Origin: Sinohyriopsis cumingii
Taxonomy: Eukaryota > Mollusca > Bivalvia > Unionida > Unionidae
Direction: 5' to 3'
Length of the DNA stretch: 64,000 bases
NCBI GenBank assembly: GCA_028554795.2
Contig: CM068835.1
Span: 34,752,901-34,816,900 of the forward strand
The notes under the pieces are model-generated. The model searched no databases and was not told where the DNA came from. It saw only the letters and a list, made by a program, of their open reading frames with translations. Numbering within the stretch: the stretch's first letter is position 1; the number at the start of each line of letters is the position of its first letter. Shown piece by piece: positions 2 through 55,619 of the stretch. The position numbers were made by a program, and so were the translations under genes.

Positions 2-682
2 CAATCTTACCATCGAAGCATCGGACGTGCCCCGCAAGACGTGACTCCCGACAACGAAGTGCTGGTGTTTGAGCGCCTGTTCGGTACGTCCCCGACGAGG
101 GCTGTCCCCAAGAAAAGTGGAGAGTTGGCCGTAGGAGATTGGGTGCGCATTGGCAAAACCAAACGCATTTTTGACAAAGGTTACTTACCTAACTGGACGA
201 CCGAATTGTTTCGCGTCACTGGACGAGTGCATGGCCGTCATCCTGCCGTCTATAAATTGGAAGACATGAACGGAGAAGTGCTCAAAGGAACGTTTTATTT
301 GCCCGAGTTACAACGTGTCACCAAAAAAGAAGACGACGTGTACGACATCGAAAGCATTCTCGAACGAAGAACCCGTAAAGTGGGCAAACGACGTGTCAAA
401 GAAGTCAAAGTACGTCGGAAAGGATATCCACCCAGTTTCGATTCTTGGATCGACGCTTCGCAAGTCATCGACTATAAAAAGAAGTCACCATCATGCCCTT
501 TCACACAGCAAACGCAGCTACGTCAACCACTCCTTCTTCTTCACCTAGTTCTTCTGTGCAAGATTTACAAAGACAACCCTTGTGGGTGTGGTGTGGAGAA
601 CGTGTGCCTAAAACGCAAATCGTCTTTTTCTGCCAAATCTTCGTGGTGTATTGTGTCATCGGGGCAGCCATTGCCAATTTGA
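2..682 (+). CDS. Polinton-type retroviral-like integrase, C-terminal part (5' end outside window)
   Basis: This is the end of an RVE-family integrase that would insert the element into host DNA. The visible part starts just after the catalytic core (SYHRSIGRAP is the family's conserved stretch after the catalytic Glu), followed by an SH3-like region (VGDWVRIGK) and a chromodomain-like module (DVYDIESILERR, then KGYPPSFDSWI), which usually guides integration to modified chromatin. The homologous gene in copy 2 stops at 21,924-21,926 (TGA). Here those bases read differently, so the frame runs on over the start of the next gene to 682; the last 60 or so residues are probably not native. The catalytic residues lie outside the window. 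Confidence 0.85.
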   Translation, partial: QSYHRSIGRAPQDVTPDNEVLVFERLFGTSPTRAVPKKSGELAVGDWVRIGKTKRIFDKGYLPNWTTELFRVTGRVHGRHPAVYKLEDMNGEVLKGTFYLPELQRVTKKEDDVYDIESILERRTRKVGKRRVKEVKVRRKGYPPSFDSWIDASQVIDYKKKSPSCPFTQQTQLRQPLLLLHLVLLCKIYKDNPCGCGVENVCLKRKSSFSAKSSWCIVSSGQPLPI

Positions 683-1772: not shown

Positions 1773-3461
1773 ATGCCTCGAAAGTGTGTTAATACCGCGG
1801 ACAATTTTTGCTATATTTGTGGGGAAGTGACATTTGCCAACCAGAAGAAAAGTATCAATTCTCAAGTGAAGAAGGCATATCATCTTTACTTCGGATGCAA
1901 GGTTGGTGACCAAGACAAGCCTTGGGCTCCGCATATATGCTGTGCTACATGTACAACACAGCTTTCACAGTGGTTGAATTGCAAAAGGTCATCAATGCCG
2001 TTTGCAGTCCCAATGGTGTGGAGAGAGCCAAGCAACCACCTAAATGACTGTTACTTCTGCTTCGTTCCTCCTCTTTCCGGCGGAATAACGAAGCGAAAGA
2101 AGTCGAGAATAGTCTACCCAAACATTCCGTCTGCATTGAGACCAGTTCCACATGGTGAGGGACTTCCTATTCCAGAACCTCCAGCAGAATATTCTCTTGA
2201 TTCATCTGACGAAGACAAAGGTGAGTCGACCTGTTCTTCTCCTGGTCCATCAGCATGCAGTGATCCAGATTTTCACTGTGGTGCATCATCAACCCCACAC
2301 AGAATAACACAGGAAGAACTAAATGACCTGATTCGTGATTTGGACTTATCAAAGAACAAGGCAAAATTGCTAGGATCAAGACTCCAACAATGGAATCTTC
2401 TAGAAGAAGATGTCACAATTACTGCATATCGAAAGCGCCATCAGCAATTGGAGCCTTTCTTCAGAAAGGAAAGTAATCTGATATTCTGTTCCGATATTGA
2501 GGGCCTCATGAATGCTTTAAAAATCACTCATGACCCACAAGAATGGAGACTATTTGTGGACTCTTCGAAACTGAGTCTCAAGGCTGTGCTTTTGCACAAT
2601 GGAAACATTCTTCCATCTATTCCAGTAGCGTATGCTGTCCACATGAAAGAGACATACGATAACTTAAGGCAGCTACTGAATTCCATTGAGTATAACAAGT
2701 ACAGCTGGCACCTCTGTGGTGATTTGAAGGTAGTTGCCCTTTTAATGGGACTGCAGCAAGGATATACAAAATACATGTGTTTCTTATGCGAGTGGGATAG
2801 CCGAGCAAGGGAAATGCACTACATGAGGAAGGAATGGACTCACAGGCAGAATGTAGCCATTGGAGAGAAGAATATCCAACACCCAGCTCTGGTTGAGGCT
2901 CAGAAAATCTTGCTACCACCCCTTCACATCAAACTAGGTTTGATGAAGAACTTCGTGAAAGCCATTGACCGGACTTTGCCAGCATTCCGATACCTGCATG
3001 AAAAATTACCTCGACTCAGCGAAGCAAAGATTAAAGAGGGAGTTTTTGTGGGTCCTCAGATTCGAGAGCTTTTCAAAGATGACCGGTTCAACAACTTGCT
3101 GGAAGGTGACGCGAAACAAGCATGGAATGCTTTTCGCCTAGTTTCTACAAACTTCCTCGGAAATGTTAGGGCAGAAAACTATAAGGAACTAGTAGAAGAC
3201 ATGTTGATGAAGTATAAGAAACTTGGCTGCAATATGTCTCTAAAGATTCACTTCCTTCATTCCCATTTGGATTTCTTTCCTAGCAACTGTGGTATTGTTA
3301 GTGATGAACACGGCGAACGTTTTCATCAAGATATCGCAACAATGGAACAAAGATACCAGGGAAAATGGTCCACTACAATGCTGGCTGACTACTGCTGGAC
3401 ACTCCTCAGAGATGCTCCCGAACAGCTGTACAAGAGACAGGCGAAGAAATCTAAGATGTAG
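1773..3461 (+). CDS. Transposase of the CACTG-ended transposon (DDE type)
   Basis: This 562-residue open frame would catalyse cut-and-paste movement of the surrounding 2.4 kb unit. The N-terminus has paired cysteines (NFCYICGE, HICCATC, DCYFC) that look like a zinc-binding DNA-recognition region. A Ser/Asp/Glu-rich linker follows at about residues 145-175. The catalytic core shows an Asp near residue 263 (LFVDSSK), an Asp near 317 (CGDLK), a C-x2-C pair at about 336/339 (CFLC) and a late HGE motif with Glu near 515 (DEHGERFHQD). The spaced D-D-E with a C-x2-C after the second Asp fits the CMC pattern. I recognise the family as abundant in arthropod and other invertebrate genomes. No stop or frameshift is visible, so it could be functional. 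Confidence 0.75.
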   Translation: MPRKCVNTADNFCYICGEVTFANQKKSINSQVKKAYHLYFGCKVGDQDKPWAPHICCATCTTQLSQWLNCKRSSMPFAVPMVWREPSNHLNDCYFCFVPPLSGGITKRKKSRIVYPNIPSALRPVPHGEGLPIPEPPAEYSLDSSDEDKGESTCSSPGPSACSDPDFHCGASSTPHRITQEELNDLIRDLDLSKNKAKLLGSRLQQWNLLEEDVTITAYRKRHQQLEPFFRKESNLIFCSDIEGLMNALKITHDPQEWRLFVDSSKLSLKAVLLHNGNILPSIPVAYAVHMKETYDNLRQLLNSIEYNKYSWHLCGDLKVVALLMGLQQGYTKYMCFLCEWDSRAREMHYMRKEWTHRQNVAIGEKNIQHPALVEAQKILLPPLHIKLGLMKNFVKAIDRTLPAFRYLHEKLPRLSEAKIKEGVFVGPQIRELFKDDRFNNLLEGDAKQAWNAFRLVSTNFLGNVRAENYKELVEDMLMKYKKLGCNMSLKIHFLHSHLDFFPSNCGIVSDEHGERFHQDIATMEQRYQGKWSTTMLADYCWTLLRDAPEQLYKRQAKKSKM

Positions 3462-4692: not shown

Positions 4693-5997
4693 ATGATGCA
4701 CCGAGAGTCTTGCGCTTGTTCCAAGACAGAACTGGATCTGTTTGCCATGCCCCCTACCATGATGACCATGCAAGAATCCCAATGGGTGGAATTTCACCCC
4801 GTCTCCTCATTAACCGATTCCGCTCCCATCGAGTTTGAAATCAAAGGACAACCCGAAGATTACATCGATCTGAATAGCAGTTACTTGTACTTGAAAGTCC
4901 AAGTTCTAGATAAGGATGGTAATGGAGTAGATGACGCTGAACAAATAGCTCCCGTCAACAATTTCATGCATTCCTTGTTCAGCTCAATGGATTTGTACTT
5001 GAACAACTAACTAGTCAGCAGCAGCATGGATACTTACCCTTACCGTGCCTACCTGGAAAATCTCTTGACGTACGGAATAGATGCCAAGGATACTCATCTC
5101 AATGCCTGCGTGCTGTGGGAACCTGACGAAGCGGGCAAGTTCGAAAAATTGGATGAAAGCAATTCCGGCTTTGAGCAAAGAGAACTCAAAATCTTAGAGA
5201 AGAAGAGTTTAGAACTGATGGATCGTTTGCATTTGGACATGTGGTTGCAAGAGAAATATTTGCTGAACGGGGTCAATGTCCGCTTGAGACTGAATCGCAG
5301 CAGTACCGCTTTCCATTTGCAGGCTGATCCTGATAAGACTGGCATTCCTAAAAGCAAAATCGAAGAGGCCAAACTCCATGTACGACGCGTAGAAGTGTTA
5401 CCCAAAGTGGGAAACGACATCAGTCAAACGTTGAGCAGAACGACCGCCAAGTATCCCATACGACGTGTGGAAGTGAAAACGTTCACCATTCCTGCTGGAC
5501 AGCATTCCATGATCGAAGATCATCTGTTTCAAGGACAGTTACCCAAGCGTTTAATCCTTGGTATGGTCTCGAATTCAGCCTTCAACGGAGCCTTCAAAGA
5601 AAATCCTTTCAACTTTCAACACTTCAGCGTGAAGAAAATCGAAGTCAGTCGCGATGGCAAGACCTTGTGTACCCGACCTTTCGAACCCGCCTTTGACAAG
5701 AAGAATTACTTGAGGTCGTACTTGTCCTTGTACGAAGCTACCGGACAGTTAGGAACCAACACCAGTCACGGTATTACGCACGAGGATTATGCAGGAGGCT
5801 ATGCTTTGTGGGCTTTCGATTTCACTCCAGACCAAGGCAGCGACGAGGGACATTTCCACCCTATAAAATCCGGCCAGATTCGTGTGGAACTTCAGTTTGC
5901 AAAAGAACTACCAGCAACAGTGAACGTCATCCTGTATGCAGAATTCGATAATACCATAGAAATCAACAGTTTGAGAGAAGTCATTCTAGATTATTAG
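4693..5997 (+). pseudogene. Major capsid protein candidate (F54H12.2-like family), one in-frame stop
   Basis: A 434-codon frame opens at ATG 4693 and stays in frame to TAG 5995-5997. It is broken only by TAA at 5008-5010, where copy 2 reads AAA. Conserved stretches are ESQWVEFHPVSS, EDYIDLNSSYLY, MDTYPYRAYLENLLTYG, the region around residues 255-305 and EFDNTIEINSLREVILDY at the C-terminus. I recognise the family as the F54H12.2-like proteins found throughout animal genomes beside Polinton integrases, thought to be the capsid protein of these elements. The stop is directly followed by CTAG, a context known to favour readthrough in metazoans. A double jelly-roll fold is expected but cannot be seen by eye. 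Confidence 0.7.
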
Positions 5998-7317: not shown

Positions 7318-7356
7318 GGGGGATGTTTTCCTTCACGTCCGCGCTTTGACTTTAAG
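7318..7356 (+). promoter_or_regulatory. Shared early-type promoter motif, copy P1
   Basis: GGGGGATGTTTTCC, then TTCACGTCCGCGCTTTGAC and a degenerate TATA (TTTAAG), ending 55-59 bases before the ATG at 7411. The same block precedes each of the small genes. Confidence 0.7.
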
Positions 7357-7410: not shown

Positions 7411-7773
7411 ATGTGTTCCAAACTAGCTAAGCTCAACGAAGCCTACGTGAATTTGCATAGGGTCAGACACAGTCTGATACCGAAGCCAGAAGAAATAGAG
7501 AATGTGAGAATGTTAAAAATCACTGAAGACCTGATAGAAGAGCTCTTCAGAGAAGAAATGAACAGGGAAAAAGAAGAATGGACAGAGAAGTACAGACTTC
7601 AGAGACAGCAGCAACAGCAGCAACAACAGCAACAGCAGCAGCAACAACCTGAAGCTGACAGAGGCTTTGTCGATTGTCGTATCGACACCAAAGAGTTCTT
7701 CTTCTCTTTCCGAAGAAGCAGACCTATCGCCAGAAAGTCTATCCTCAGAGGACATCGCATTCTTAGAAACTAA
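7411..7773 (+). CDS. Small tandem gene A with polyglutamine tract
   Basis: 120 residues from ATG 7411. The N-terminal helix (CSKLAKLNEAYVNLHRVRHSL) resembles that of small genes B and D, so the three look like paralogues. A charged region (EELFREEMNREKEEW) leads into about 17 glutamines coded by a CAG/CAA repeat at roughly 7601-7648. The tail lacks the Cys-rich end of genes B and D, so the repeat may have shifted the frame. The gene lies between promoter motif P1 and a histone-type stem-loop that starts 31 bases after its stop. The function is unknown. Confidence 0.55.
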   Translation: MCSKLAKLNEAYVNLHRVRHSLIPKPEEIENVRMLKITEDLIEELFREEMNREKEEWTEKYRLQRQQQQQQQQQQQQQQPEADRGFVDCRIDTKEFFFSFRRSRPIARKSILRGHRILRN

Positions 7774-7803: not shown

Positions 7804-7842
7804 AGCCCTTTTCAGGGCTACCCCAATACTCTAGAAAAGAAA
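7804..7842 (+). terminator. Histone-mRNA-type 3' stem-loop and downstream purine element, gene A
   Basis: A 6 bp stem with loop TTTC (AGCCCTTTTCAGGGCT, 7804-7819) has an A-rich lead and ACCCC directly after it, then GAAAAGAAA at 7834-7842. This matches the metazoan histone 3' end (stem-loop with UUUC loop, ACCCA, purine-rich U7 site) except that the basal pairs begin A-T instead of G-C. Confidence 0.75.
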
Positions 7843-8151
7843 TAACGATCGATTTGCCAATGTGTGTAGGTAGAGTAGTGTGAAAATAAACACTAACTCT
7901 TTTTTTTTTAAAATGTGAGGGTATGTGTTTGTGTGTTTGTGTTTGTAAGTACTCACGTAAGTTGGTGTGGATAGTAGATTAAAATAATGTTTTTTTGGTG
8001 TTTGAGGTGTATATTTGGGGTTAGATTGGATTGCTTTGTGTATGTGGATAGTCTATTGAAGTGATTTATAAAAAAATTTAAAATAGTGATGGGCAGCATA
8101 AAAAAGCGAGTGAGTGTTTCTTTTAGGTCCGCGCGTTGTTGTTTTGGGTCA

Positions 8152-8180
8152 TGATCTAGGTAAGATCAATTTTATGTTTT
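8152..8180 (+). repeat. GATCTAGGTAAGATC upstream element, first copy
   Basis: ATGATCTAGGTAAGATCAAT lies directly upstream of promoter motif P2. It recurs upstream of P4 at about 8875-8903. The two GATC halves flank a short spacer, as in a dyad binding site. A degenerate GTCCGCGCGTTGTT block precedes each copy. Confidence 0.55.
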
Positions 8181-8182
8181 TA

Positions 8183-8220
8183 GGGGGATGTTTTCCATCA
8201 CGTCCGCGCTTTCACTATAA
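8183..8220 (+). promoter_or_regulatory. Shared early-type promoter motif, copy P2
   Basis: GGGGGATGTTTTCC, ATCACGTCCGCGCTTTCAC and TATAA, 55-59 bases before ATG 8273. Confidence 0.75.
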
Positions 8221-8272
8221 ATTGAAACTCGCTGGGCAGTCTAGCTACCCTTGTTGATTGATCAACACAAGA

Positions 8273-8581
8273 ATGAATAGCAGAATAAGCAAACTTCTTG
8301 AACTCCAGATACATCTGGAATATGTCAGACGCCTGTTAAATGAACTGGCCGCGGAGGCTATAGTAGAAGAGGAAAGAATGAAGAACGAAGAGGAGGAGAG
8401 AAGACAGAGGGAAGAGGAGGAAAAGAAACTAGAAGAGAGGATGTCGTACAATATTCCCGAGACAGAGGATTGGGGTGTTGAAGCGAATCATCCTCCCTCT
8501 GCGCTCCCCAGAAGAAAGGTGAAAGGAGACTGGGGAAGAAGATGCGTGTGTGGCGCCAGGCCAGGAAGGTGCAACCATTAG
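8273..8581 (+). CDS. Small tandem gene B, coiled-coil protein with Cys-rich end
   Basis: 102 residues from ATG 8273. The N-terminal helix (RISKLLELQIHLEYVRRLL) runs into a Glu/Arg/Lys-rich coiled coil at residues about 30-60, and the protein ends in RRCVCGARPGRCNH, a compact Cys/His cluster that could bind zinc. The homologue in copy 2 (26,052-26,435) keeps both ends and differs in the middle, which supports real coding. It is preceded by P2 and followed by a histone-type stem-loop 31 bases after the stop. No known family is recognised; an early regulatory role is only a guess from the promoter. Confidence 0.65.
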   Translation: MNSRISKLLELQIHLEYVRRLLNELAAEAIVEEERMKNEEEERRQREEEEKKLEERMSYNIPETEDWGVEANHPPSALPRRKVKGDWGRRCVCGARPGRCNH

Positions 8582-8611
8582 ATAGGTGCATCTGGAGTTC
8601 AAAAAAAAAAC

Positions 8612-8649
8612 AGCCCTTTTAAGGGCTACCCAATACTCTAGAAAAGAAA
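8612..8649 (+). terminator. Histone-mRNA-type 3' stem-loop and downstream purine element, gene B
   Basis: AGCCCT / TTTA / AGGGCT at 8612-8627, preceded by ten A and followed by ACCCA, with GAAAAGAAA at 8641-8649. The loop differs from the usual TTTC only in its last base. Confidence 0.75.
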
Positions 8650-8835
8650 TAACTATTAATTTGCCAATGTGTGTAGGTAGAGTAGTGTGAATATAAACAC
8701 TAACTCTTTTAAAAAAATGTGAGTGAATGTGTGTTAGTGTTTGTAAGAGCTCAGGTATGTTAGTGTGAATAGCAGATTATAGGTTTCTTAGCGTATGTGA
8801 AGAGTTAGGGTTTTATTATATGAAATGAGAAAGTA

Positions 8836-8864
8836 GGGGGATGTTTTCCTTCACGTACGCGCGT
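8836..8864 (+). promoter_or_regulatory. Shared promoter motif, degenerate copy P3
   Basis: GGGGGATGTTTTCC then TTCACGTACGCGCG, without a TATA box. It lies about 70 bases upstream of P4, with the GATCTAGGTAAGATC element between them. Confidence 0.6.
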
Positions 8865-8874
8865 TGTTAGGTCA

Positions 8875-8903
8875 TGATCTAGGTAAGATCAATTTTATGT
8901 TCT
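8875..8903 (+). repeat. GATCTAGGTAAGATC upstream element, second copy
   Basis: Same sequence as at 8152-8180, again just before a complete promoter motif (P4). The duplication shows that upstream element and promoter were copied together. Confidence 0.55.
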
Positions 8904-8905
8904 TA

Positions 8906-8944
8906 GGGGGATGTTTTCCATGACGTCCGCGCTTTCACTATAAG
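8906..8944 (+). promoter_or_regulatory. Shared early-type promoter motif, copy P4
   Basis: GGGGGATGTTTTCC, ATGACGTCCGCGCTTTCAC and TATAAG, about 55 bases before ATG 8994. Confidence 0.75.
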
Positions 8945-8993
8945 AACCCACCAAGTTTGTCGTTGGAACCATTCTACGGAAGAACCCAAGAAA

Positions 8994-9516
8994 ATGAGTA
9001 TTGAACTATTTAATGAGCTAAAGGATAGTTGGTACTGGATGACAGATGCAGCCTATGTGGTGGAAAGGCTAGAGAAGGAGTGGATGCATGAAGTTACTAA
9101 GGACTTTGTCAAAGTCAAGTGACGAATGTAAAACTTGCCAGGGATCTGATTGTGGACATGATTGAAGAGGAAGTTAAAAAGTTAAGAGGCTTCATAAAAC
9201 TTGACTATGTGATAGTAGGTAAACTGAAAGAGGCCCTTGATTATGCTATTGAAGTGAGGTGTTTTTTAAAAGATATTTTGGAGTGGACTGAGTGGTCCTA
9301 TGTGAAATAGGGTTTAAACCAAATGATGAAAGCAGAGGAGATGATGAGGAAAGTGATGAGAGAACAAGTCAAGATAATAAAAGAAAAGTGGTCAAAGGAA
9401 AGAAAAGAAGAAGAAAATAGAAAAAAAAGGATGAACTAGAAAAACTGAACACAAACTGGATGAAAATCCAAGAGAAGTTCCGGGCCATGGGCCACCCGGA
9501 CTGGCTGCCGGAATAG
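8994..9516 (+). pseudogene. Small tandem gene C, frameshifted
   Basis: It starts at ATG 8994 (SIELFNELKDSWYWM) and hits TGA at 9120-9122. Coding character continues in the -1 frame from about 9119 to 9310 (DLIVDMIEEEVKKL), then in a Lys/Glu-rich helix from about 9322 and a last piece ending FRAMGHPDWLPE near 9516. The arrangement (P4 upstream, histone-type stem-loop downstream) matches genes A, B and D, so I read this as a third module member broken by at least two frameshifts. The distance from the last stop to the stem-loop is longer here than in the others. The function is unknown. Confidence 0.5.
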
Positions 9517-9602
9517 AAAAGAAGAAGAAAGGAATGATGGACAAAATAAGAGGATGGTGGAAAAAGTTAAGAAGTTAAAAGAAGAAGAAAAAAAAACCCA
9601 AA

Positions 9603-9640
9603 GGCCCTTTTCAGGGCCACCCATATTTCTCGAAAAGAGA
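9603..9640 (+). terminator. Histone-mRNA-type 3' stem-loop and downstream purine element, gene C
   Basis: GGCCCTTTTCAGGGCC at 9603-9618 fits the canonical histone stem-loop consensus fully, including the basal GG/CC pairs and TTTC loop. AAA stands before it, ACCCA after it and GAAAAGAGA at 9632-9640. Confidence 0.8.
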
Positions 9641-9689
9641 TAGCCTTTCAATTGCCTACCCCTTTTTTTTTAAAAAAATTTTTTTTTAA

Positions 9690-9890: not shown

Positions 9891-9982
9891 TACTATCCAC
9901 ACACGGGAAGAAGCCAAATTAAACCCAAATTCTACTATTCACACACGCGGAGAAGCAAACAACTAAACACACATTTACTATC

Positions 9983-10138
9983 CCTTTAATATTTGATGTG
10001 GCAAGAAGAAATGATACAATACGCAACACAGGGATTGTAAGTTTACACTCCAATCTGTCTGCACTGCAGTGGTAACAACGCTGTTGCGTTGGCATTATTT
10101 TGCATCACTGCCTTAGAAAAACAATGCATCGCTCAATG
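9983..10138 (+). repeat. Inverted repeat between the two Polintons, left arm
   Basis: About 155 bp whose reverse complement recurs at 11,842-11,996 with good similarity (shared GAAGAAATG, CAACACAGGGATT, GCATTATTTTGC, CAATGCATCGCTCA). Similarity stops abruptly at both edges. Confidence 0.7.
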
Positions 10139-11414: not shown

Positions 11415-11841
11415 ATTCCTACTGTAGAACATATCAAGATACTTAGTCTGTTTTTACAGTATATTTTCCTGAAGAAAGATTCAAAGAAACACTCAATCCA
11501 CTCAGATAATCACAGCCATAGAAAAATTCACTATTATTAAATATCACCAGAGTGAACTGAAGATTATGGAGACCAAAAAATTCCTCCTTTTTTGATAACT
11601 TGGATGTAGAGTTCTCACAGAATAGTTCATCCAAATATGATGTGATGTATTTGACTATAAAACTGACACAATTTATGTGGGATCGCCCAGGGTACGATTG
11701 TTCTTGCGTTAGTTGTACTTTTTTTAATTATTTTATAAATCACCTAGCAGTGAGACACGACCTAACTCGACACTGTTACTTAAGTCAATTCGTAGTTAAC
11801 GTGGTCAGAAAATAAGTCTAGCCATTGAAATCGTTTATGAT

Positions 11842-11996
11842 GAGCGATGCATTGTTTTGTTCGAAGTTAGTGTGGCAAAATAATGCCTACGCTCTTGCGT
11901 TGTTACCTATGTAGTGCAGACTGACTGGAGTGTGAACTTGAAATCCCTGTGTTGAGTATTGTACCATTTCTTCTTACAACATCAACTACTGAAAGG
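11842..11996 (-). repeat. Inverted repeat between the two Polintons, right arm
   Basis: Reverse-complement partner of 9983-10,138. The arms could be terminal repeats of a 2 kb non-autonomous transposon, or the right terminal repeat of copy 1 facing the left one of copy 2. No target duplication is evident. Confidence 0.7.
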
Positions 11997-12282: not shown

Positions 12283-12315
12283 GGGGGTGTTTTCCTTCCC
12301 GTCCGAGTTTCAATC
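12283..12315 (+). promoter_or_regulatory. Shared promoter motif, degenerate copy P5
   Basis: GGGGGTGTTTTCC then TTCCCGTCCGAGTTTCAATC, without a TATA box, about 430 bases before the polymerase gene. It marks the left region of copy 2. Confidence 0.6.
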
Positions 12316-12483
12316 CTCTTTCAAGACAAACTTGTATCCTTTTGTAGGGCTTGAAATAAAAAAACTGAACAAACTTAAGCACTTTGCTCTAGATATTTCC
12401 TTTTGCAGCAACAGACTATACAGCATAAATACTGTTTCAACAATAGAAAGCCTTAAATCTTCTAGCAAAAAGTAATCTCCACT

Positions 12484-12527
12484 TTCACACATTGGCAAAT
12501 TGAATACTGTTTCTTTTCTAGAGTTTT
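12484..12527 (-). repeat. Inverted copy of the histone-downstream-element block
   Basis: The minus strand reads AAAACTCTAGAAAAGAAAC, then ATTTGCCAATGTGTG, the same block that follows the stem-loops of the small genes. No stem-loop precedes it here. It could be the end of a lost minus-strand gene or part of a terminal inverted repeat pairing with about 26,490-26,535. Confidence 0.55.
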
Positions 12528-12662
12528 GCTTAGTCCATATGTTCTTATTCTACAACCAAGAGACACTTACGTTTTATGTCAGGTGTATTCTGATCCAATG
12601 AGAGTGAAATGAATAGTGGAAGGCAACTCACACACCCTTTATATACGCTGGTCTGCCATGGA

Positions 12663-12716: not shown

Positions 12717-15700
12717 ATGAAACGATCACATTGATTCGTGAAGAAAGGAGAAGAAGACAGTAAGAGGCAGAAACGTGATCTATCGCCTCGTACCATCGCT
12801 GAAGTCGTGGCACAAATTCATGTAAGTGATTCTGAAGAGGACACGAGTGAACCAGAATCCAGACTCATAGAGTCTACACCTAGCCAAAGTTCACCAGTCA
12901 ACCCTGAAAAGTACAATCACATTCGAGAGACGGAAATGCGCCCCTCTAGAAAATTTAAAACCACGGCTTACAAATACACGATGAAGTTTTAAGATTTCAA
13001 GTCCCACATACTGTTGGAGAAAGCAGAAGGGTTCATCACCGAGGTGTGGGATTCTTTGCTCACCATACTAAAGCGACAATGTCAACCCAAAGAATACGAT
13101 CGCTTCAGATTTTCACTAGAACACGACGGTTTGAAATCCCCTGTTTGGATCGAGTTTAGCAGCCCTGCAGAATTGACCGCTTCCAAAGTCATGGACAAGA
13201 TTCAACACGTACAACAATCGAATGACCAGTTTGACATCACCGATGGAAAAGCCACACTGTCCATGACCCACGTCTCTCCTCCTCAAGGGACCAGACAACG
13301 CAAAAAGGTCTTATTGGTTGACGACCTTCGCAGCATTAAGCGTAGCCTCGTCCGAATTCACTACCCTCAACACCAGATGTGTTTAACCAGGGCTATCGTG
13401 GTGGGACAAACCTATGCCAACAAGAACGACACGGCAGAATGGAAAAAAGCCTGGGAGAATATTCGAAAATCGGACCGAGCCAAACAACGAAGTGAAGCAG
13501 AACTCCTGTTACAACAAGCCGGCCTGTCCAAAGACACACCCTGTGGTATTCCTGACATTCAAAAATTGCAAGATGTCCTAGCTCCACGCTACACCTTGAA
13601 AGTGCACCCTCAAGAAGTGCGCGGGCCTCTGTTGTTCCGATGCCAAGATTTTAAAGATGGAAAATACATTCATGTCTATCATTACCATGGACATTTCGAT
13701 GCCATTACCAGGAACAGTGCATTCCTGGGATACGGTTATTACTGTGAACAATATGACTATGGCTATAACAATCGAGAGCAACACAAACATTGTGGATCGA
13801 AATGCTCAGGATGTTTGGCCTCTCAACCCTGTCTGGACGAAGGACAAGAACGAGTGCATTGTCCAGCTTCTCAGCGCACGTATGTCAGCCCTACCTGTTA
13901 CCAACAACATTTGAAGACACAAGGTTCCGGCAGAAATGTGCTTGTCAGCTGCTGCGATTGTATCCTACGTGTGGACAAGGCATACGTACCAACAGTACCA
14001 AGGCACACATATGTTCAGGAAAGAAAAAATGTCACATTTGTCACCAAATCGTAGATTTGGAACACCAATGTTACATGCAAAAATACCAACCCCAACAAGA
14101 GAAAGATGAGGACCACAAGAAGAAAGGCAATTTCATCTTTTTAGATTTCGAATCATGCATGAGACCGGCATTCACATTCCTAATTTCTGCGTGGCTCATC
14201 GAGCGTGCAAAAAGTACATTAAAGAACCTATCTTGAGTCATTGCCCTCACTGAAGCAAGATTCCTGGAGGACGTGAAAAAATCTTTCGAGGACCGAACAC
14301 GCTAGCCGATTTTGCCCAATGGGTCTTAAACCCCATCGACAAGGCATGGAGCCAAGAGGACATCGAACGTTACGGAGATTCTCATCGCTATGCCAGAGTG
14401 ATGGCCCACAATTTCGCGGGATACGATGGACAGTTTCTTTTGAGATACTATACGGAACAAGGCACCGAACGTCCTAAAGTCACTTTGAACGGAGCCAAAA
14501 TCATTTTCATGCAAGTGGGACAAGTACAGTTTAAAGATTCGATGAGTTACTTGGCTATGCCTTTGAGTCGAATGCCTAAAACTTTTGGAATGACAGAAAT
14601 GGCCAAAGGTTACTTTCCACACTTTTTCAATACAGAAGCCAATCACCATGCCGTTCTACCCCATTTGCCTGAGGCTCACTTTTACGACCCAGACAACATG
14701 CGTACCGAACAACGAGAAGCCTTCTACGCTTGGTACCGCACCCATCCCTCTGACCCTTTCGACTTTCAGGAAGAAATGTTAAAGTATTGTCGTTCCGACA
14801 TGGACATTTTACGGCGTTGCTGTGGAAAATTTCGAGAACTGTTCATGGAACACGGAGGGGTCGATCCTTTGAAAGAAGCTTGCACCATTGCCAAAGCGTG
14901 TTCCTTAGTGTACCGACAATAATCCTTGCCTGAAAACAGCCTAGCTGACATCAGTCCTCAAACGACTAACTATGTCAAACGTCAATACTCGGTCAAAGCC
15001 CTACGTTAGTTACATTACTTGTGCGACAAGGAAGACAAATGGATTCAACATGTCCTCAACGGAAGGGGTGAAAAGAACATCGGAACACATTCGTTAGATG
15101 GCTGGGAGTTAGAAAACCCCAAGATCGTGTACGAGTTTAACGGTTGCTTATTTCACGGATGTCCCGTCTGCTACCCTGATCGTGGCACTAAAAATCAGTT
15201 TTTACAACGAACCAAACCATGGAAGACTTGTACCAGGCCACTTGTCAGAGACGCCTAAATTTAGAACAGCAAGGATACCAAGTAGTGGAAATGTGGGAAT
15301 ACGAGTACGATCACCGTTTAAAAATTGATCCCGAGTTTAAACGCATCGTAGAAAGTTACCAGTGGGTGGACCCCTGAACCCGAGGTACAGTTTGTACAGA
15401 GGAAGGACCAATGCCACCTGTTTGCTGTCCCAAGCCGACGAAGATAAAAGAGAAGAAATCAAATAATTGGACGTGTGCTCACTGTATCCCTACGTGTGCA
15501 AATAGTGTCACTTTCCTGCAGGACGCCCGCAATTGCTGACGGAATGCATCGACCTGAAAAACATTCGACAATACGAAGGCTTGATCAAGTGCAAAGTTTT
15601 GCCTCCCACAGACTTGTACCATCCCGTGTTACCTCGCCATTGTCAAGGCAAACTGATGTTTCCTTTGTGCCGTACTTATTCCGAAACGTGCAACCAAGAC

Positions 15701-16829: not shown

Positions 16830-17462
16830 ATGAATTCTTTCGGAGAAACACAAAACAAGTTCAGACAGGCACAATTCAAATTTGGGGTCTCTAAAGTGGA
16901 ATGCGATGCTGAACCTTACGATGTGAGCGCTGCTGAACGTTGTGACCTCAGTGATGCAGTAAAGCATCATGGGAACTTTATTACCACTACTCCTATGATG
17001 GAAAGTGATGCTGTGCGTGTCAAACCTGATGGATGCGAAAGCGATGTCACTCGTCATCTTGGACACTTTACTGGGTTTCCTTGTCAATGTTGATGTCAAC
17101 CTTCACGTCTACCACCCTATGGATGTCATCCAGCCCTGAGCAAACTCCTATCCATGTCACCCTACCCTCATCGAGATCCTGTGAAAGACGAATATTCGTT
17201 TCCTGTGCAATTGCCTGAATTCTGTAACTTTGAAAATCGTTTTCAATCGTTCAAAGGAAAATGGCCTAAGTATCTGGGAGGACGGACCCCCGAAGAATTA
17301 GCCAGAGCCGGATTTTTCTACTTGGGCGAAGGGGATAAAGTCAAGTGTTTCAGTTGCGGTGTGTCACTTCACCACTGGGAACCACAAGATACGGCCTACC
17401 TGGAACATGCTCGATGGTCTCCCAATTGTCACTATTTACTTTTAGTGGGACGATATCAGTAG
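16830..17462 (+). pseudogene. BIR-domain (IAP-type) protein carried by the Polinton
   Basis: The clear part is 17,154-17,462: a baculovirus-IAP repeat with NRFQSFKGKWP, ELARAGFFYLGEGDKVKC and a perfect C-x2-C-x16-H-x6-C zinc pattern (CFSC to HARWSPNC). BIR proteins restrain caspases or signal in death and immune pathways, so this is a likely captured host gene that could delay cell death. The same frame extends upstream to ATG 16,830 through one TGA at 17,091-17,093; a frameshift near 17,050 is also possible, so the N-terminus is uncertain. A Gly-Gly-His plus Cys pattern after the stop (about 17,525-17,570) might be a relic of a RING finger. It lies between polymerase and ATPase. Confidence 0.75.
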
Positions 17463-25961: not shown

Positions 25962-25999
25962 GGGATGTTTTCCTTCGCGTCCGAGCTTTGACCATAAAA
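25962..25999 (+). promoter_or_regulatory. Shared early-type promoter motif, copy P6
   Basis: GGGATGTTTTCC, TTCGCGTCCGAGCTTTGAC and CATAAAA, about 57 bases before ATG 26,052. Confidence 0.7.
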
Positions 26000-26051: not shown

Positions 26052-26435
26052 ATGAGTAACAGAATAAGCAAACTGATGGAACTCCAGATACACCTGGAAA
26101 ACGTCAGGCGTCTCCTGAATGAGCTGACAGCGGAGACCATTGTAGAAGAAGGAAGAATGAAAGAGGAGGAGCAGAGAAGAAAGAAAGAAGAGGAGGAAAA
26201 GAAGAGAGGAATCAGGTTTCACCCTAGGATGAGACCTAGACAAGGACAGCATCCTAGACTACGGGATAGAAGAAGAAGAAGACAGATGGAAGTTTTCGTT
26301 ATCCCAGAAACTGAAGATTTCGGTACTGAGGCTACTCATCAAGACTCTGCACTCCCAACCACAAGGGTAAATTGGGAAGGGGATTCGAGCAGACGATGCG
26401 TGTGCGGTGCCAGACCTGGAAGATGCCAGCATTAG
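26052..26435 (+). CDS. Small gene D, homologue of gene B in copy 1
   Basis: 127 residues. The N-terminal helix RISKLMELQIHLENVRRLL and the C-terminal RRCVCGARPGRCQH match gene B; the Glu/Lys/Arg coiled coil is followed by an Arg-rich insert (residues about 57-80) not present in gene B. Conservation of both ends across diverged element copies argues for selection on the protein in the past. P6 lies upstream, and a histone-type stem-loop begins 33 bases after the stop. The function is unknown; the Cys/His end might bind zinc. Confidence 0.65.
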   Translation: MSNRISKLMELQIHLENVRRLLNELTAETIVEEGRMKEEEQRRKKEEEEKKRGIRFHPRMRPRQGQHPRLRDRRRRRQMEVFVIPETEDFGTEATHQDSALPTTRVNWEGDSSRRCVCGARPGRCQH

Positions 26436-26467: not shown

Positions 26468-26505
26468 AGCCATTTTCAGGGCTACCCAAAACTCTAGAAA
26501 AGAGA
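26468..26505 (+). terminator. Histone-mRNA-type 3' stem-loop and downstream purine element, gene D
   Basis: AGCCAT / TTTC / AGGGCT at 26,468-26,483 with one mismatched pair, A-rich lead, ACCCA after it and GAAAAGAGA at 26,497-26,505. Confidence 0.7.
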
Positions 26506-52529: not shown

Positions 52530-52612
52530 CACAATTGCATTTATGTCATTCATTCCTATTAGGTCGTTATATGAACGATCGATAGGTTCATGTCATTCAT
52601 TCCTATTGTTAT
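52530..52612 (+). repeat. 53 bp satellite, left fragment
   Basis: One to two units with GAACGATCGATAGGTTCAT and TCATTCCTATT, cut by the LINE. The array continues after the LINE from 55,636. Confidence 0.75.
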
Positions 52613-55600
52613 TCTCATTGACAGAGAACTCTCCCGACTGAACATCGACATTGCCTGCCTCCAGGAGACCCGACTGGCTGACAGCGGCACCATCAGGGAA
52701 GCCAATTACACATTCTTTTGGCAGGGGAAGCCCTTGGATGAACCTAGGCAGCATGGTGTAGGCTTTGCCGTCAAGAACACGCTAATCGCCTTCATTGAAC
52801 CTCCATCATCAGGTACTGAGAGAATCCTTGCCCTCCGGCTGTCAACATCCTTAGGCCCGGTCAACATCTTCAGTGTGTACGCCCCAACCCTCTACTCCAC
52901 CTACGAGGAGAAAGACAAGTTTTATGAGGCTATGGATCAGGCAATATCCAGTATCCCCAACAATGAAAGCATTTACTTACTACGAGACTTCAATGCTAGA
53001 GTGGGAGCTGACCATGAGGCCTGGTCCACCTGTCTCGGCTTTTACGGAAGGGGCAAGATCAACGAGAATGGTCAGCGACTGCTGAAGATGTGCTGCTCCC
53101 ACAGCCTATGTGTGACAAACACTTTCTTCAAATGCAAGGAGATCCACCAGGTGTCGTGGAGACACCCACGTTCACGCCACTGGCACCAGCTAGACCTCGT
53201 CATCACCAGGCGTGCAGACCTGGCCAGTGTCCTCCTTACCCGCAGCTACCACAGTGCCGATTGTGACACGGACCATTCCCTCGTGGCCAGCAAGGTGCGA
53301 ATATTACCCAAGAAGCTGCACCACGCCAAGTAGAAGGGTCACCCACGTATCAACACCTACTGTGCAAGCAACCCAGAGAAAACACAGCAGTTCATCAGCA
53401 AACTGAAGGAAGCGCTCACCAAAGTGACACCTGATGACACCATTGATTCCAAGTGGTCCCATATCCGTGACTCTGTGTACAAATCAGCCATCACAGCTTA
53501 CGGGAAGAGGGAGCGAAAGAATGTCGACTGGTATGAGGCAAACTGGGAGGAGATGCTGCCCGTGACTGAGGCAAAGAGGAAAGCCCTTCTGGCATACAAG
53601 GCTGCACCTAGCCCCAGAACACTACAAGCCCTCAGGATTGCAAGGAATAACGCCCAGAAGACCGCCCGCCGCTGTGCCAACACCTACTGGCTGAACCTTT
53701 GCAACAGTATACAGACAGCTGCTGACACCGGGGATACAAGAGGAATGTATGAGGGTATCAAAAAAGCGACAGGCCCCCCCAGCTACAAGACCGCCCCCCT
53801 CAAGTCCAAGACGGGCGAAGTCATCACAGACCAGGGGAAACAACTGCAGCGATGGGTTGAGCACTATCTTGAGCTATATGCAACCCAAAACAATGTCACT
53901 GGAACTGCCCTGGACGCCATTCCAGACTTGCCTGTCATGGAGGAGCTAGACACACAGCCCACCCTGGAAGAGCTCGGAAAAGCCATCGATTGCCTTGCCT
54001 GTGGGAAGGCTCCTGGAAGCGACGGCATTCCGCCTGAAGTCCTCAAGAGCGGAAAACCAGCACTTCTCCAGCCCCTACACACACTCCTCTGCCTTTGCTG
54101 GGAACAGGGATACATCCCACAGGACATGCGTGATGCCAACATCGTCACTTTGTACAAAAACAAAGGAGACCGTAGCGACTGCAACAAGTATCGGGGCATC
54201 TCCCTCCTCAGCATCGTCGGAAAGGCCTTCGCCCGTGTTGCCTTGGCACGCTTGCAGATCCTAGCCTCCCGCGTCTACCCAGAATCCCAGTGTGAATTTC
54301 GAGCCGGCAGGTCAACTGTAGACATGATCTTCTCACTACGTCAGCTGCAGGAGAAGTGTCGCGAGCAGCGGATGCCCCTCTACATTGCCTTCATAGACCT
54401 GACGAAGGCGTTTGACATGGTTAGTCGGAGTGGACTCTTCAGACTCCTGCAGAAGATCGGCTGCCCCCCACGTCTGCTTGCTGTCATTATGTCGTTCCAC
54501 GAGAACATGCACAGCACAGTGTGCTTCAATGGCGCAACATCTGAAGCATTCCCAGTCGTTAGCGGAGTCAAACAAGGCTGTGTCCTTGCACCGACGCTCT
54601 TTGCCATCTTCTTCTCCATGCTTCTCCAGTACGCATTCAAGGACTGCAGCGAGGGAGTGTACATCCATACCAGGGCTGACGGCAAGCTGTTCAACATCAC
54701 CCGTCTCCGTGCTAAGACTAAAGTCACAGAGGTACTCATCCGTGAATTGCTCTTTGCCGACGATGCAGCCTTGACATCACACACGGAAGATGGACTTCAG
54801 CAGCTGGTATGCTGCCTCTCCCATGCATGTAAGGAATTTGGACTGACCATCAGTTTGAAGAAAACAAATGTCATGGCACAGGACACAGACTCCCCTCCCT
54901 CTGTCTCCATCGATGGGTACAATTTGGAAGTTGTCTAGAACTTCACATACCTCGGGTCTAACATCTCCAGCTCACTCTCCATTGATTCTGAGGTGGGCGG
55001 CAGGATTGCCAAGGCAGCAGCAGTGATGGCCAGACTTAACCAGAGGGTCTGGAACAACCCCAACCTCACAGAGAAGACCAAACTGCGTGTCTACCAAGCG
55101 TGCGTGCTCAGCTCACTTCTCTACAGCAGCAAAACATGGACCACCTATGCAAGACACGAGAGGAAACTCAACAGCTTCCACCTGAGATGTCTGCGGCGCA
55201 TTCTGCACATCCAGTGGCAGAACAAAGTACCCAACACAGAGGTTCTAGAACGCGCCAACATGAACAGCATGTTCTCCATACTCAGCGAGAGGCGCCTTCG
55301 CTGGCTCGGCCATGTCAAGAGAATGGACCCAGGTCGCATTCCCAAGGACCTGTTATATGGGGAGTTAGCAGAAGGTGCAGGACCAACTGGACGACCACAT
55401 CTGCGCTACAAAGATGTTTGCAAGAAGGATATGAAGACAGCAAACATCAATGTCAACGACTGGGAGAGCTGTGCAAACAACCGTTCTAGATGGCGTCTAG
55501 CTGTCAGGCAGGGAGTTCAAAACGCAGAGGAAAAGAGAAGAATAAAGCAAGCTGAAAAGAGAGCTAAAAAGAAGGATAAGCAAAAGCGTACTTTGGAGCT

Positions 55601-55619
55601 ATGCCATCGTCTCTCGTAG
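52590..55619 (+). pseudogene. Non-LTR retrotransposon (LINE) endonuclease-reverse transcriptase, two TAG stops
   Basis: One continuous frame of 1,010 codons is broken only by TAG at 53,331-53,333 and 54,936-54,938. The first part is an endonuclease/exonuclease/phosphatase fold: CLQETRL, RDFNARVG and DTDHSLVASK hold the catalytic Glu, Asp/Asn and His. The reverse transcriptase follows with GKAPGSDGIP, YRGISLL, FIDLTKAFDMV, SGVKQGCVLAPTLF and the catalytic LLFADDAAL; the C-terminus has RRLRWLGHVKRM and a Lys-rich tail. The endonuclease lacks its usual first residues because the 5' end is truncated at the satellite; the real LINE sequence begins near 52,613. I do not assign a clade. Confidence 0.85.

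Follow-up and report, generated by a model that had tools for sequence, protein, structure and literature searches.

The element and its genes

The window analysed here, a 64-kb stretch of Sinohyriopsis cumingii DNA, contains two copies (copy 1 and copy 2) of a mobile element which, judged from its sequence, is a member of a multi-copy Polinton/Maverick family. The genes considered are the following.

266..682, + strand: copy 1 integrase, chromodomain-like end (PF00385, 22.7 bits, just below the cut-off of 25.1)
4693..5997, + strand: copy 1 putative capsid protein gene, in two pieces (602 homologues, F54H12.2-like by name in oysters)
7411..7773, + strand: small gene 1, encoding a glutamine-rich protein of 120 aa without a Pfam family above cut-off
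8273..8581, + strand: small gene 2, encoding a charged protein of 102 aa (median dN/dS 0.22 among relatives)
8994..9578, + strand: small gene 3, frame broken in the window copy (open frames at the same place in loci L098 and L099)
14401..14919, + strand: copy 2 family B DNA polymerase fragment, organellar and viral type (PF03175, E 1.3e-12)
26052..26435, + strand: copy 2 counterpart of small gene 2, 127 aa

In common with the Polintons/Mavericks (adintoviruses), the element has a DNA_pol_B_2 polymerase, of the viral and presumably protein-primed type, an rve integrase with a chromodomain-like end and a candidate capsid gene akin to the oyster F54H12.2-like proteins. The retrovirus-like integrase is recognized in a sister copy, L039 (PF00665, E 1.4e-11), and inverted arms of 140 nt, 81% complementary, which are candidate terminal inverted repeats, lie at 9982–10121 and 11857–11996, next to the ends at which copies 1 and 2 face each other. 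The product of 4693..5997, which we take to be the Polinton capsid protein, gave as a candidate no Pfam match above cut-off and no PDB match.

Nor did the small proteins give anything in Pfam above the curated cut-off, and no histone family was found in six small proteins of other copies or in small genes 1 and 2 of the window. Selection on small gene 2 is apparent in the dN/dS value given above, which was obtained at a median dS of 0.87 (40 of 45 pairs); database searching with its protein gave two relatives at E<=0.001.

Histone-type stem-loops behind the small genes

Downstream of the small genes lie stem-loops of the kind that ends replication-dependent histone mRNAs, in copy 1 each followed by a purine block.

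7804..7819, + strand: histone-type 3′ stem-loop 1, of small gene 1, loop TTTC (RF00032, 29.3 bits)
7834..7842, + strand: purine block (HDE-like) GAAAAGAAA, 14 nt past stem-loop 1
8612..8627, + strand: histone-type 3′ stem-loop 2, of small gene 2, loop TTTA (RF00032, 31.1 bits)
8641..8649, + strand: purine block GAAAAGAAA, 13 nt past stem-loop 2
9603..9618, + strand: histone-type 3′ stem-loop 3, of small gene 3, loop TTTC (RF00032, 42.5 bits)
9632..9640, + strand: purine block GAAAAGAGA, 13 nt past stem-loop 3
26468..26483, + strand: copy 2 stem-loop, decayed, 5 of 6 pairs (RF00032, 19.1 bits)

A sequence-only reading of this DNA had described a 6 bp stem after three genes of copy 1 and one of copy 2, and had proposed that the four sites be scored with a covariance model. 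When the whole window was searched by cmscan with Rfam RF00032 (Histone3, the histone 3′ UTR stem-loop; gathering score 34), one of the four exceeded the curated cut-off (E 3.2e-9, the match running from 9598), two were significant below it (E 5.6e-5 for stem-loop 2 and 2.7e-4 for stem-loop 1), and the decayed copy 2 site was not significant alone (E 1.7). The site above the cut-off is the one at 9603, to which the full histone consensus had been ascribed; its arms are GGCCCT/AGGGCC (those at 7804–7819 are AGCCCT/AGGGCT), and all 16 nt are identical to the stem-loop of the host H2B gene. The six pairs stand for copy 1; at 26468–26483 one stem base is altered and the full stem no longer forms. 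The TTTC or TTTA loops can be read directly in the sequence, as had been claimed, and ACCC follows the stem immediately at all four window sites. The gap from stop to stem is 30, 30 and 32 nt in the window genes with clear stops, in agreement with the stem start at nucleotides 31–33 reported before, and GAAAAGA begins 13 nt past the stem, or 14 nt at the first site, close to the earlier figure of about 14. A chance palindrome is ruled out by the RF00032 scores together with a search of the 2.9 Gb host genome for the stem-loop and the purine block as one exact pattern, which returned 33,336 matches and 0 in the reversed control.

The host's own histone genes provide a yardstick. The histone 3′ stem-loop, found throughout animals, is bound by SLBP, and U7 snRNP cuts after it, giving S-phase mRNAs without poly(A); histone mRNAs are considered the sole class of animal protein-coding mRNA with a stem-loop end in place of poly(A). 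Five host histone genes have the same stem-loop architecture, with GAAAAG 13–14 nt past the stem in all five (13, 13, 13, 14 and 14 nt), which is the spacing of the HDE-like purine block in the element. Among them the loop is TTTA in H2A and TTTT in H3 and H4, the H1 stem has one pair changed, and H2B, H2A and H1 (of one H2B–H2A–H1 repeat) score 38.2, 39.4 and 35.0 against RF00032. The element genes have in common with replication-dependent histone genes, the substrates of SLBP and U7 snRNP, the stem, the loop, the A-rich lead, the purine block 13–14 nt further on and the position of the stem-loop soon past the stop. Unlike histone genes, they belong to a mobile element and encode proteins without a histone match in Pfam, and we infer their 3′ processing from sequence.

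Distribution among copies of the element

Across copies of this Polinton, five small genes end in a stem-loop: three at the right end and one divergent pair at the left end. In all 26 of the measured genes, each with an open frame, the stem-loop lies 19–36 nt past the stop, and five stretches retrieved from other copies likewise gave Histone3 matches. Since loci L006–L035 were picked by stem-loop score, particular interest attaches to the samples that were not chosen by stem-loop, which are only two: 20 copies of small gene 2, all of them 99–100% copies of the window protein, in every one of which a fully paired stem lies 27–33 nt past the stop, and two loci selected through their capsid gene, both with all three right-end stem-loops. 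The purine-block spacing is exact in 19 of 20 of the sample not chosen by stem-loop; a wider scan, which demanded a block within 44 nt, found it at 13 nt in 56 of 57 stem-loops and at 14 nt in the other, some stem-loops with an altered block falling outside these 57. Small gene 1 of locus L043 has no recognizable stem-loop. The element's own polymerase, integrase and capsid genes, carried by the same copies as the small genes, differ from them in having no histone stem-loop at their ends (eight 9.9-kb stretches, each holding only part of an element).

In small gene 2 the stem-loop is 94% identical, compared with 68% for the stretch from stop to stem (gaps counted as differences), in loci that are mostly the same ones picked by stem-loop score; an earlier conservation comparison on those loci was partly circular for that reason. 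Downstream non-coding sequence is also conserved in part. In a hand-picked table of 22 stems (5 host and 17 element rows, 18 distinct), 95.4% of cells are paired, compared with 91.8% in shuffles, and two stem pairs are changed on both sides, a number reached by 20 of 500 shuffles: pair 1 in six sequences and pair 3 in host H1 only. The number of pair types in the same table does not exceed that of shuffles, 466 of 500 of which attain the observed value. Compensatory change, the test set by the sequence-only reading, is seen among element sequences at pair 1 only, the base of the stem, which is G–C in some genes and A–U in others.

Four distant Polinton relatives in other hosts (L001–L004, contaminant loci in genome contigs) gave no Histone3 match, in a scan that did not take in the right end of L001, because that locus ends 1.3 kb past the capsid gene, and in which the small-gene regions of L002–L004 were not located; the MAG records holding the four have one RF00032 match below threshold (24.6 bits). 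Capsid scans of viral contigs returned no relative, and stem-loop patterns in viral contigs returned 0 and 1 matches, the one being judged from sequence alone and taken as chance. The element also differs from the Polintons/Mavericks of the literature searched, in which we found no description of histone-type gene ends in Polintons or adintoviruses.

Host histone promoter elements

Going beyond the earlier stem-loop observation, what is new here is that the right-end genes are preceded by putative promoter elements of the host histone genes.

7320..7347, + strand: H1/H2B-type histone promoter element ahead of small gene 1, agreeing with the host H2B core at 23 of 24 nt
8117..8137, + strand: promoter element identical to the host histone H4 upstream element (21 of 21 nt)
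8185..8212, + strand: promoter element of small gene 2 (8187–8210 identical to host H2B, 24 of 24 nt)
8838..8865, + strand: first promoter element of small gene 3 (25 of 28)
8908..8935, + strand: second promoter element of small gene 3 (27 of 28)
25962..25989, + strand: promoter element of copy 2 (25 of 28)

Taken together, the right-end elements match the host at 24 of 24 nt for H2B and 23 of 24 for H1, and a second element matches H4 at 21 of 21; these H2B, H1 and H4 motifs are a further feature common to the right-end genes and the replication-dependent histone genes of the host. The best agreement with the 28-nt promoter word in unrelated or shuffled sequence is only 17–18, and the promoter element has 29,667 matches genome-wide against 0 in the control. 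In the first 6.28 Mb of contig C1, 51 of 88 promoter sites are followed on the same strand by a stem-loop 200–1300 nt downstream; flipping the strand leaves 0, and rotating the list 200 times gives a mean of 0.67 and a maximum of 5. The divergent promoter of the left end resembles host histone promoters no more than shuffles do. The 28-nt promoter element is absent from the single H3 upstream region of the host that was examined, and in the four relatives from other hosts it is absent as well (best 17–18 of 28). The promoter elements are independent evidence that supports the proposed tie to DNA replication.

Interpretation and alternatives

We suggest, with a probability of roughly 0.87, that the right-end and left-end small genes are transcribed and 3′-processed like replication-dependent histone genes and are thereby tied to host S phase. 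The reading of the 3′ ends as histone-type agrees with their sequence, spacing, position past the stop, covariation at the stem base and match to the host histone genes; given a histone RNA end signal on several genes and a promoter signal on three, the genes are probably switched on when DNA is copied. The notion that these are host histone fragments only is rejected because the stem-loops come after the element's reading frames.

The alternative that deserves most attention, though we regard it as unlikely, is that most of the mRNA is polyadenylated, with the histone-type end used occasionally or in S phase only, as is known for some histone genes; it overlaps with the preferred explanation. 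Small gene 1 has AATAAA 80–81 nt past the stem start in three of three copies checked, and in three of six left ends the A-rich lead of the 190-aa gene contains AATAAA 8 nt ahead of the stem, so that poly(A) use is possible for these two. Against this, small genes 2 and 3 lack both AATAAA and ATTAAA over the interval that runs from a little ahead of the stop to 120 nt past the stem start (seven of seven genes checked). The element's other genes have no regular AATAAA signals either, so that this signal does not set them apart from the small genes by type of 3′ end. On the host side, the SLBP domain gave 0 matches at E<=0.001, a search in which the domain may be intron-split and which gave none in control genomes either; the U7 snRNA search gave three weak matches below cut-off and no convincing gene, and a putative U7 Sm-site pattern gave 10 sites against 3 in the reversed control, with no U7-like hairpin in the six of the ten that were read.

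We give little credence to passive hitch-hiking, in which a host histone gene end and promoter were captured once, spread by duplication and are functionless now. Cassettes 1 and 2 are indeed tandem duplicates and the motifs are near the host ones, but genes for different proteins on both strands carry the stem-loop at the correct distance past the stop, it has persisted across a median synonymous divergence of 0.87, over which the preceding stretch drifts, and promoter and end signals are paired in the right order and strand. Their location near both element ends could suggest that the palindromes are a DNA signal or another RNA signal (for replication, packaging or transcription stop) with a convergent likeness to histone ends; we consider this very improbable in view of the covariance score, the loop and flank letters, the host-spaced purine block and the histone promoters before the right-end genes. 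That the host histone genes got their signals from the element might be argued from the near-identity of the promoter motifs; such a reverse flow is scarcely credible, as the histone stem-loop is animal-wide and in the host five different genes carry it, with loops and stems that vary among them.

If the small genes are indeed controlled like histone genes, host histone transcription factors would fire the right-end promoters in S phase, host SLBP would bind the stem-loop of the mRNAs, and the U7 machinery would cleave the RNA between stem and purine block; the mRNAs would be translated without poly(A) and destroyed once replication stops, and the element proteins would be made when replication factors and nucleotides are on hand. 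The RNA ends, the SLBP and U7 dependence and the S-phase timing are predictions of this model. Embryos express histone genes during cleavage, as do germ cells when they divide; histone-type control would therefore, by further extension, favour heritable insertion, which may help to explain the very large copy number.

We think it likely that an animal virus-like mobile element has taken on the grammar of its host's histone genes, at the promoter as well as at the 3′ end, in a set of genes that encode no histone, giving a cell-cycle-gated class of viral mRNA without poly(A) and a reason for its multiplication to very high copy number in embryos and the germ line. If this is true, the stem-loop end and the promoter words on unrelated proteins would mean that the histone pathway can be hijacked as a unit, and the many copies of the element would offer an independent readout of which bases of the host histone promoters matter. 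Sequencing of RNA selected for poly(A) would overlook these small genes. For the Polintons themselves, histone-type control would provide a testable answer to how they time their expression.

Histone promoter and 3′-end signals in the element

Our main new result is that the upstream repeat of the Polinton recurs in the upstream regions of host histone genes. The promoter element GATGTTTTCCATCACGTCCGCGCT at 8187 is identical at 24 of 24 positions to the upstream region of host H2B and at 23 of 24 to that of H1, with a weaker copy (20/24) on the opposite strand at H2A, and a second promoter element, at 8117, agrees at 21 of 21 positions with the region upstream of host H4. For the 28-nt promoter word, background matches reached at best 17 in 32 kb of unrelated window sequence and 17–18 in three shuffles; four Polinton relatives from other hosts (L001–L004) gave only 17–18, as background. 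The promoter element did not occur upstream of host H3 in the single region checked, and the divergent promoter of the left end resembled none of the five host histone promoters more than shuffles did.

The small gene in each cassette (small gene, promoter element and stem-loop) had been proposed in the sequence-only reading to carry a histone-type 3′ end, and this is supported by the stem-loops at 7804, 8612 and 9603 (small genes 1, 2 and 3) and by a fourth, decayed one in copy 2 at 26468. At the site at 9603, claimed to fit the full histone consensus, RF00032 (Histone3) gives the top match of the window against all of Rfam (9598–9643, 42.5 bits, E 3.2e-9). Scoring of the four sites by covariance model, proposed as a check, thus placed one over the curated cut-off of 34 bits, whereas the remaining three fell under it, at 31.1 (E 5.6e-5), 29.3 (E 2.7e-4) and 19.1 bits (E 1.7). 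Genes with a clear stop have stop-to-stem gaps of 30, 30 and 32 nt, in keeping with the distance claimed; the reading frame of small gene 3 is broken in the window copy.

A stem-loop ends all five host histone genes, which lie in tandem arrays whose repeat unit is about 8.3 kb long. Of 30 loci, all had the H3 end and 29 the H4 end; the H2B, H2A and H1 ends were read from one repeat (L074). Host H2B and small gene 3 have exactly the same 16-nt stem-loop, and host H2A and small gene 2 have a TTTA loop in common, whereas the loop of host H3 and H4 is TTTT and one stem pair is changed in H1. GAAAAG follows the host stem at 13 nt in H3, H4 and H2B and at 14 nt in H2A and H1. One of the 30 host H3 copies (L044, on C801) lacks the usual start region. 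Histone mRNAs of Lucina pectinata are described in PMC6210712 as having a stem-loop near the stop and purine-rich elements in only some.

Identity and layout of the element family

Copy 2 contains DNA_pol_B_2 fragments by Pfam search, an rve integrase core was found in the sister copy L039, and a chromodomain-like end lies at 266–682 (22.7 bits, slightly below cut-off). The capsid-type gene was named by neither Pfam nor PDB sequence search. It has 602 database relatives, and among the best 120 of these the eukaryotic names are oyster F54H12.2-like proteins, which we take to be Polinton capsid proteins. Such relatives suggest that the host is a bivalve.

Features of the window
C12:34752901-34816900: the window, in a 2.9 Gb assembly
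1773-3461: 562-aa ORF, no Pfam match, within a ~2.4 kb stretch in copy 1 that is absent from copy 2 and looks like a foreign insertion
12284-12311, plus strand: weaker histone-type promoter match (22/28), copy 2 left end
12477-12539, minus strand: cassette-end relic, copy 2 left end; stem lost, purine block retained
17154-17462: BIR (inhibitor of apoptosis) domain gene in the element (PF00653, E 1e-23); sister copies L036 and L042 have two BIR matches apiece
52590-55619: ordinary non-LTR-type retrotransposon encoding endonuclease and reverse transcriptase domains

Thirty excised loci show two arrangements, namely right-end cassettes as in the window and a divergent gene pair encoding about 190 and 77 aa, both genes of which are terminated by a stem-loop. 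In all six fetched left ends the pair adjoins the polymerase gene; in L036 it is inverted relative to that gene, unlike in the five others. Cassettes lie 3′ of the capsid gene in both fetched right ends, one of which has a protease-like gene, presumably a protease. Since longer stretches assign both arrangements to one kind of element, the family has five stem-loop genes, two left and three right, as a composite of partial stretches from separate copies. In eight fetched stretches the polymerase, integrase and capsid genes showed no stem-loop at their ends, and in L043 the stem-loop of small gene 1 is no longer recognizable.

Abundance and regularity of the signals

Copy numbers given here are pattern or candidate matches rather than complete elements. 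The exact pattern of stem-loop plus purine block (the GAAAAGA block 3′ of the stem) occurs 33,336 times in the genome (reversed control, 0), and the 24-nt promoter form 29,667 times (control, 0). RF00032 has at least 75 matches across many contigs, all above cut-off (scores exist for 75 of 589,472 first-look candidates). Among the matches listed for the first 6.28 Mb of C1, a same-strand stem-loop lies 200–1300 nt downstream of 51 of 88 promoter sites, and a promoter site upstream of 53 of 100 stem-loops; flipping the strands gave 0, and 200 rotated lists a mean of 0.67 and a maximum of 5.

Scanning the window and L001–L035 for the structure returned 57 sites, 52 with 6/6 stem pairs and five with 5/6. 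The purine block starts 13 nt past the stem at 56 of them and 14 nt past it at the other; the scan demanded this block, and several stem-loops with an altered block exist among the excised loci. In 20 copies of small gene 2 sampled independently of the stem-loop, a fully paired stem lies 27–33 nt past the stop in all 20 and the exact purine block is present in 19. They were drawn from 150 scored copies, and because their proteins are 99–100% identical to that of the window the sample informs on recent copies. Of the 150, 118, among them the copy in the window, encode a protein listed as 100% identical to that of the window, suggesting very recent spread. Two loci drawn from 95 scored capsid matches, likewise independently of the stem-loop, each have three of three right-end stem-loops. 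In all 26 distinct open-frame genes (10 of small gene 2, eight of 77 aa and eight of 190 aa, mostly from loci picked by stem-loop score) the stem-loop lies 19–36 nt past the stop, with an altered stem in three.

The suggested scan of other Polintons reached four contaminant loci (L001–L004), which lack a histone stem-loop, the MAG records holding them giving one weak, sub-threshold match. L002 has a sub-threshold twister-P1 ribozyme match (11731–11795, 28.9 bits, E 0.034) about 0.5 kb past its Polinton capsid gene. In Mercenaria mercenaria, 7,091 Maverick copies (31.4 Mb) are given in one column of a table in PMC8905726.

Constraint on the cassettes

Median dN/dS was 0.22 for small gene 2 (median dS 0.87; of the 45 pairs among 10 distinct open frames, 40 had a usable dS), 0.45 for the 190-aa gene (median dS 0.09; 22 of 28 pairs) and 0.15 for the 77-aa gene (13 of 28 pairs), small gene 3 being left out of the set. 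Across the small gene 2 set, identity is 94% in the stem-loop, 93% in the purine block and, with gaps counted as differences, 68% from stop to stem; in the noncoding flank it is 75% at +37 to +60 and 57% at +101 to +150. The stretch from +61 to +100 of the stem start (8673–8712 in the window) is noncoding, yet 88% identical among relatives. Base pair 1 of the stem is either G-C or A-U, depending on the gene. Of the alignment cells of the stem, 95.4% are paired vs 91.8% in shuffles; the number of stem pair types is not above shuffles.

Implications for expression

We show, at the level of sequence, that five genes carry host histone cis-signals at their 3′ ends and three carry them in their promoters, correctly ordered and spaced. 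The earlier view that such ends are undescribed in Polintons or adintoviruses holds for the literature searched, a scope outside which most subscription papers fall; no paper there pairs the histone stem-loop with Polintons, one mentions histone, stem-loop and adintovirus a single time each, and in work on SLBP, Maverick, RF00032, transposons and viruses, no title or abstract among the matches listed concerned histone-type ends. Genome searches identified neither host SLBP nor U7. AATAAA lies 80–81 nt downstream of the stem start of small gene 1 in three of three copies, a site that this gene may also use, and 8 nt before the stem of the 190-aa gene in three of six left ends; around the other genes of L039, none lies within 600 nt of the gene ends.

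The small genes would probably be transcribed in S phase, SLBP would bind the stem-loop, and U7-guided cleavage would follow, yielding mRNA without poly(A) that would decay as S phase ends. The small proteins are charged and match no Pfam family above cut-off; our guess is that they act early in replication of the element.
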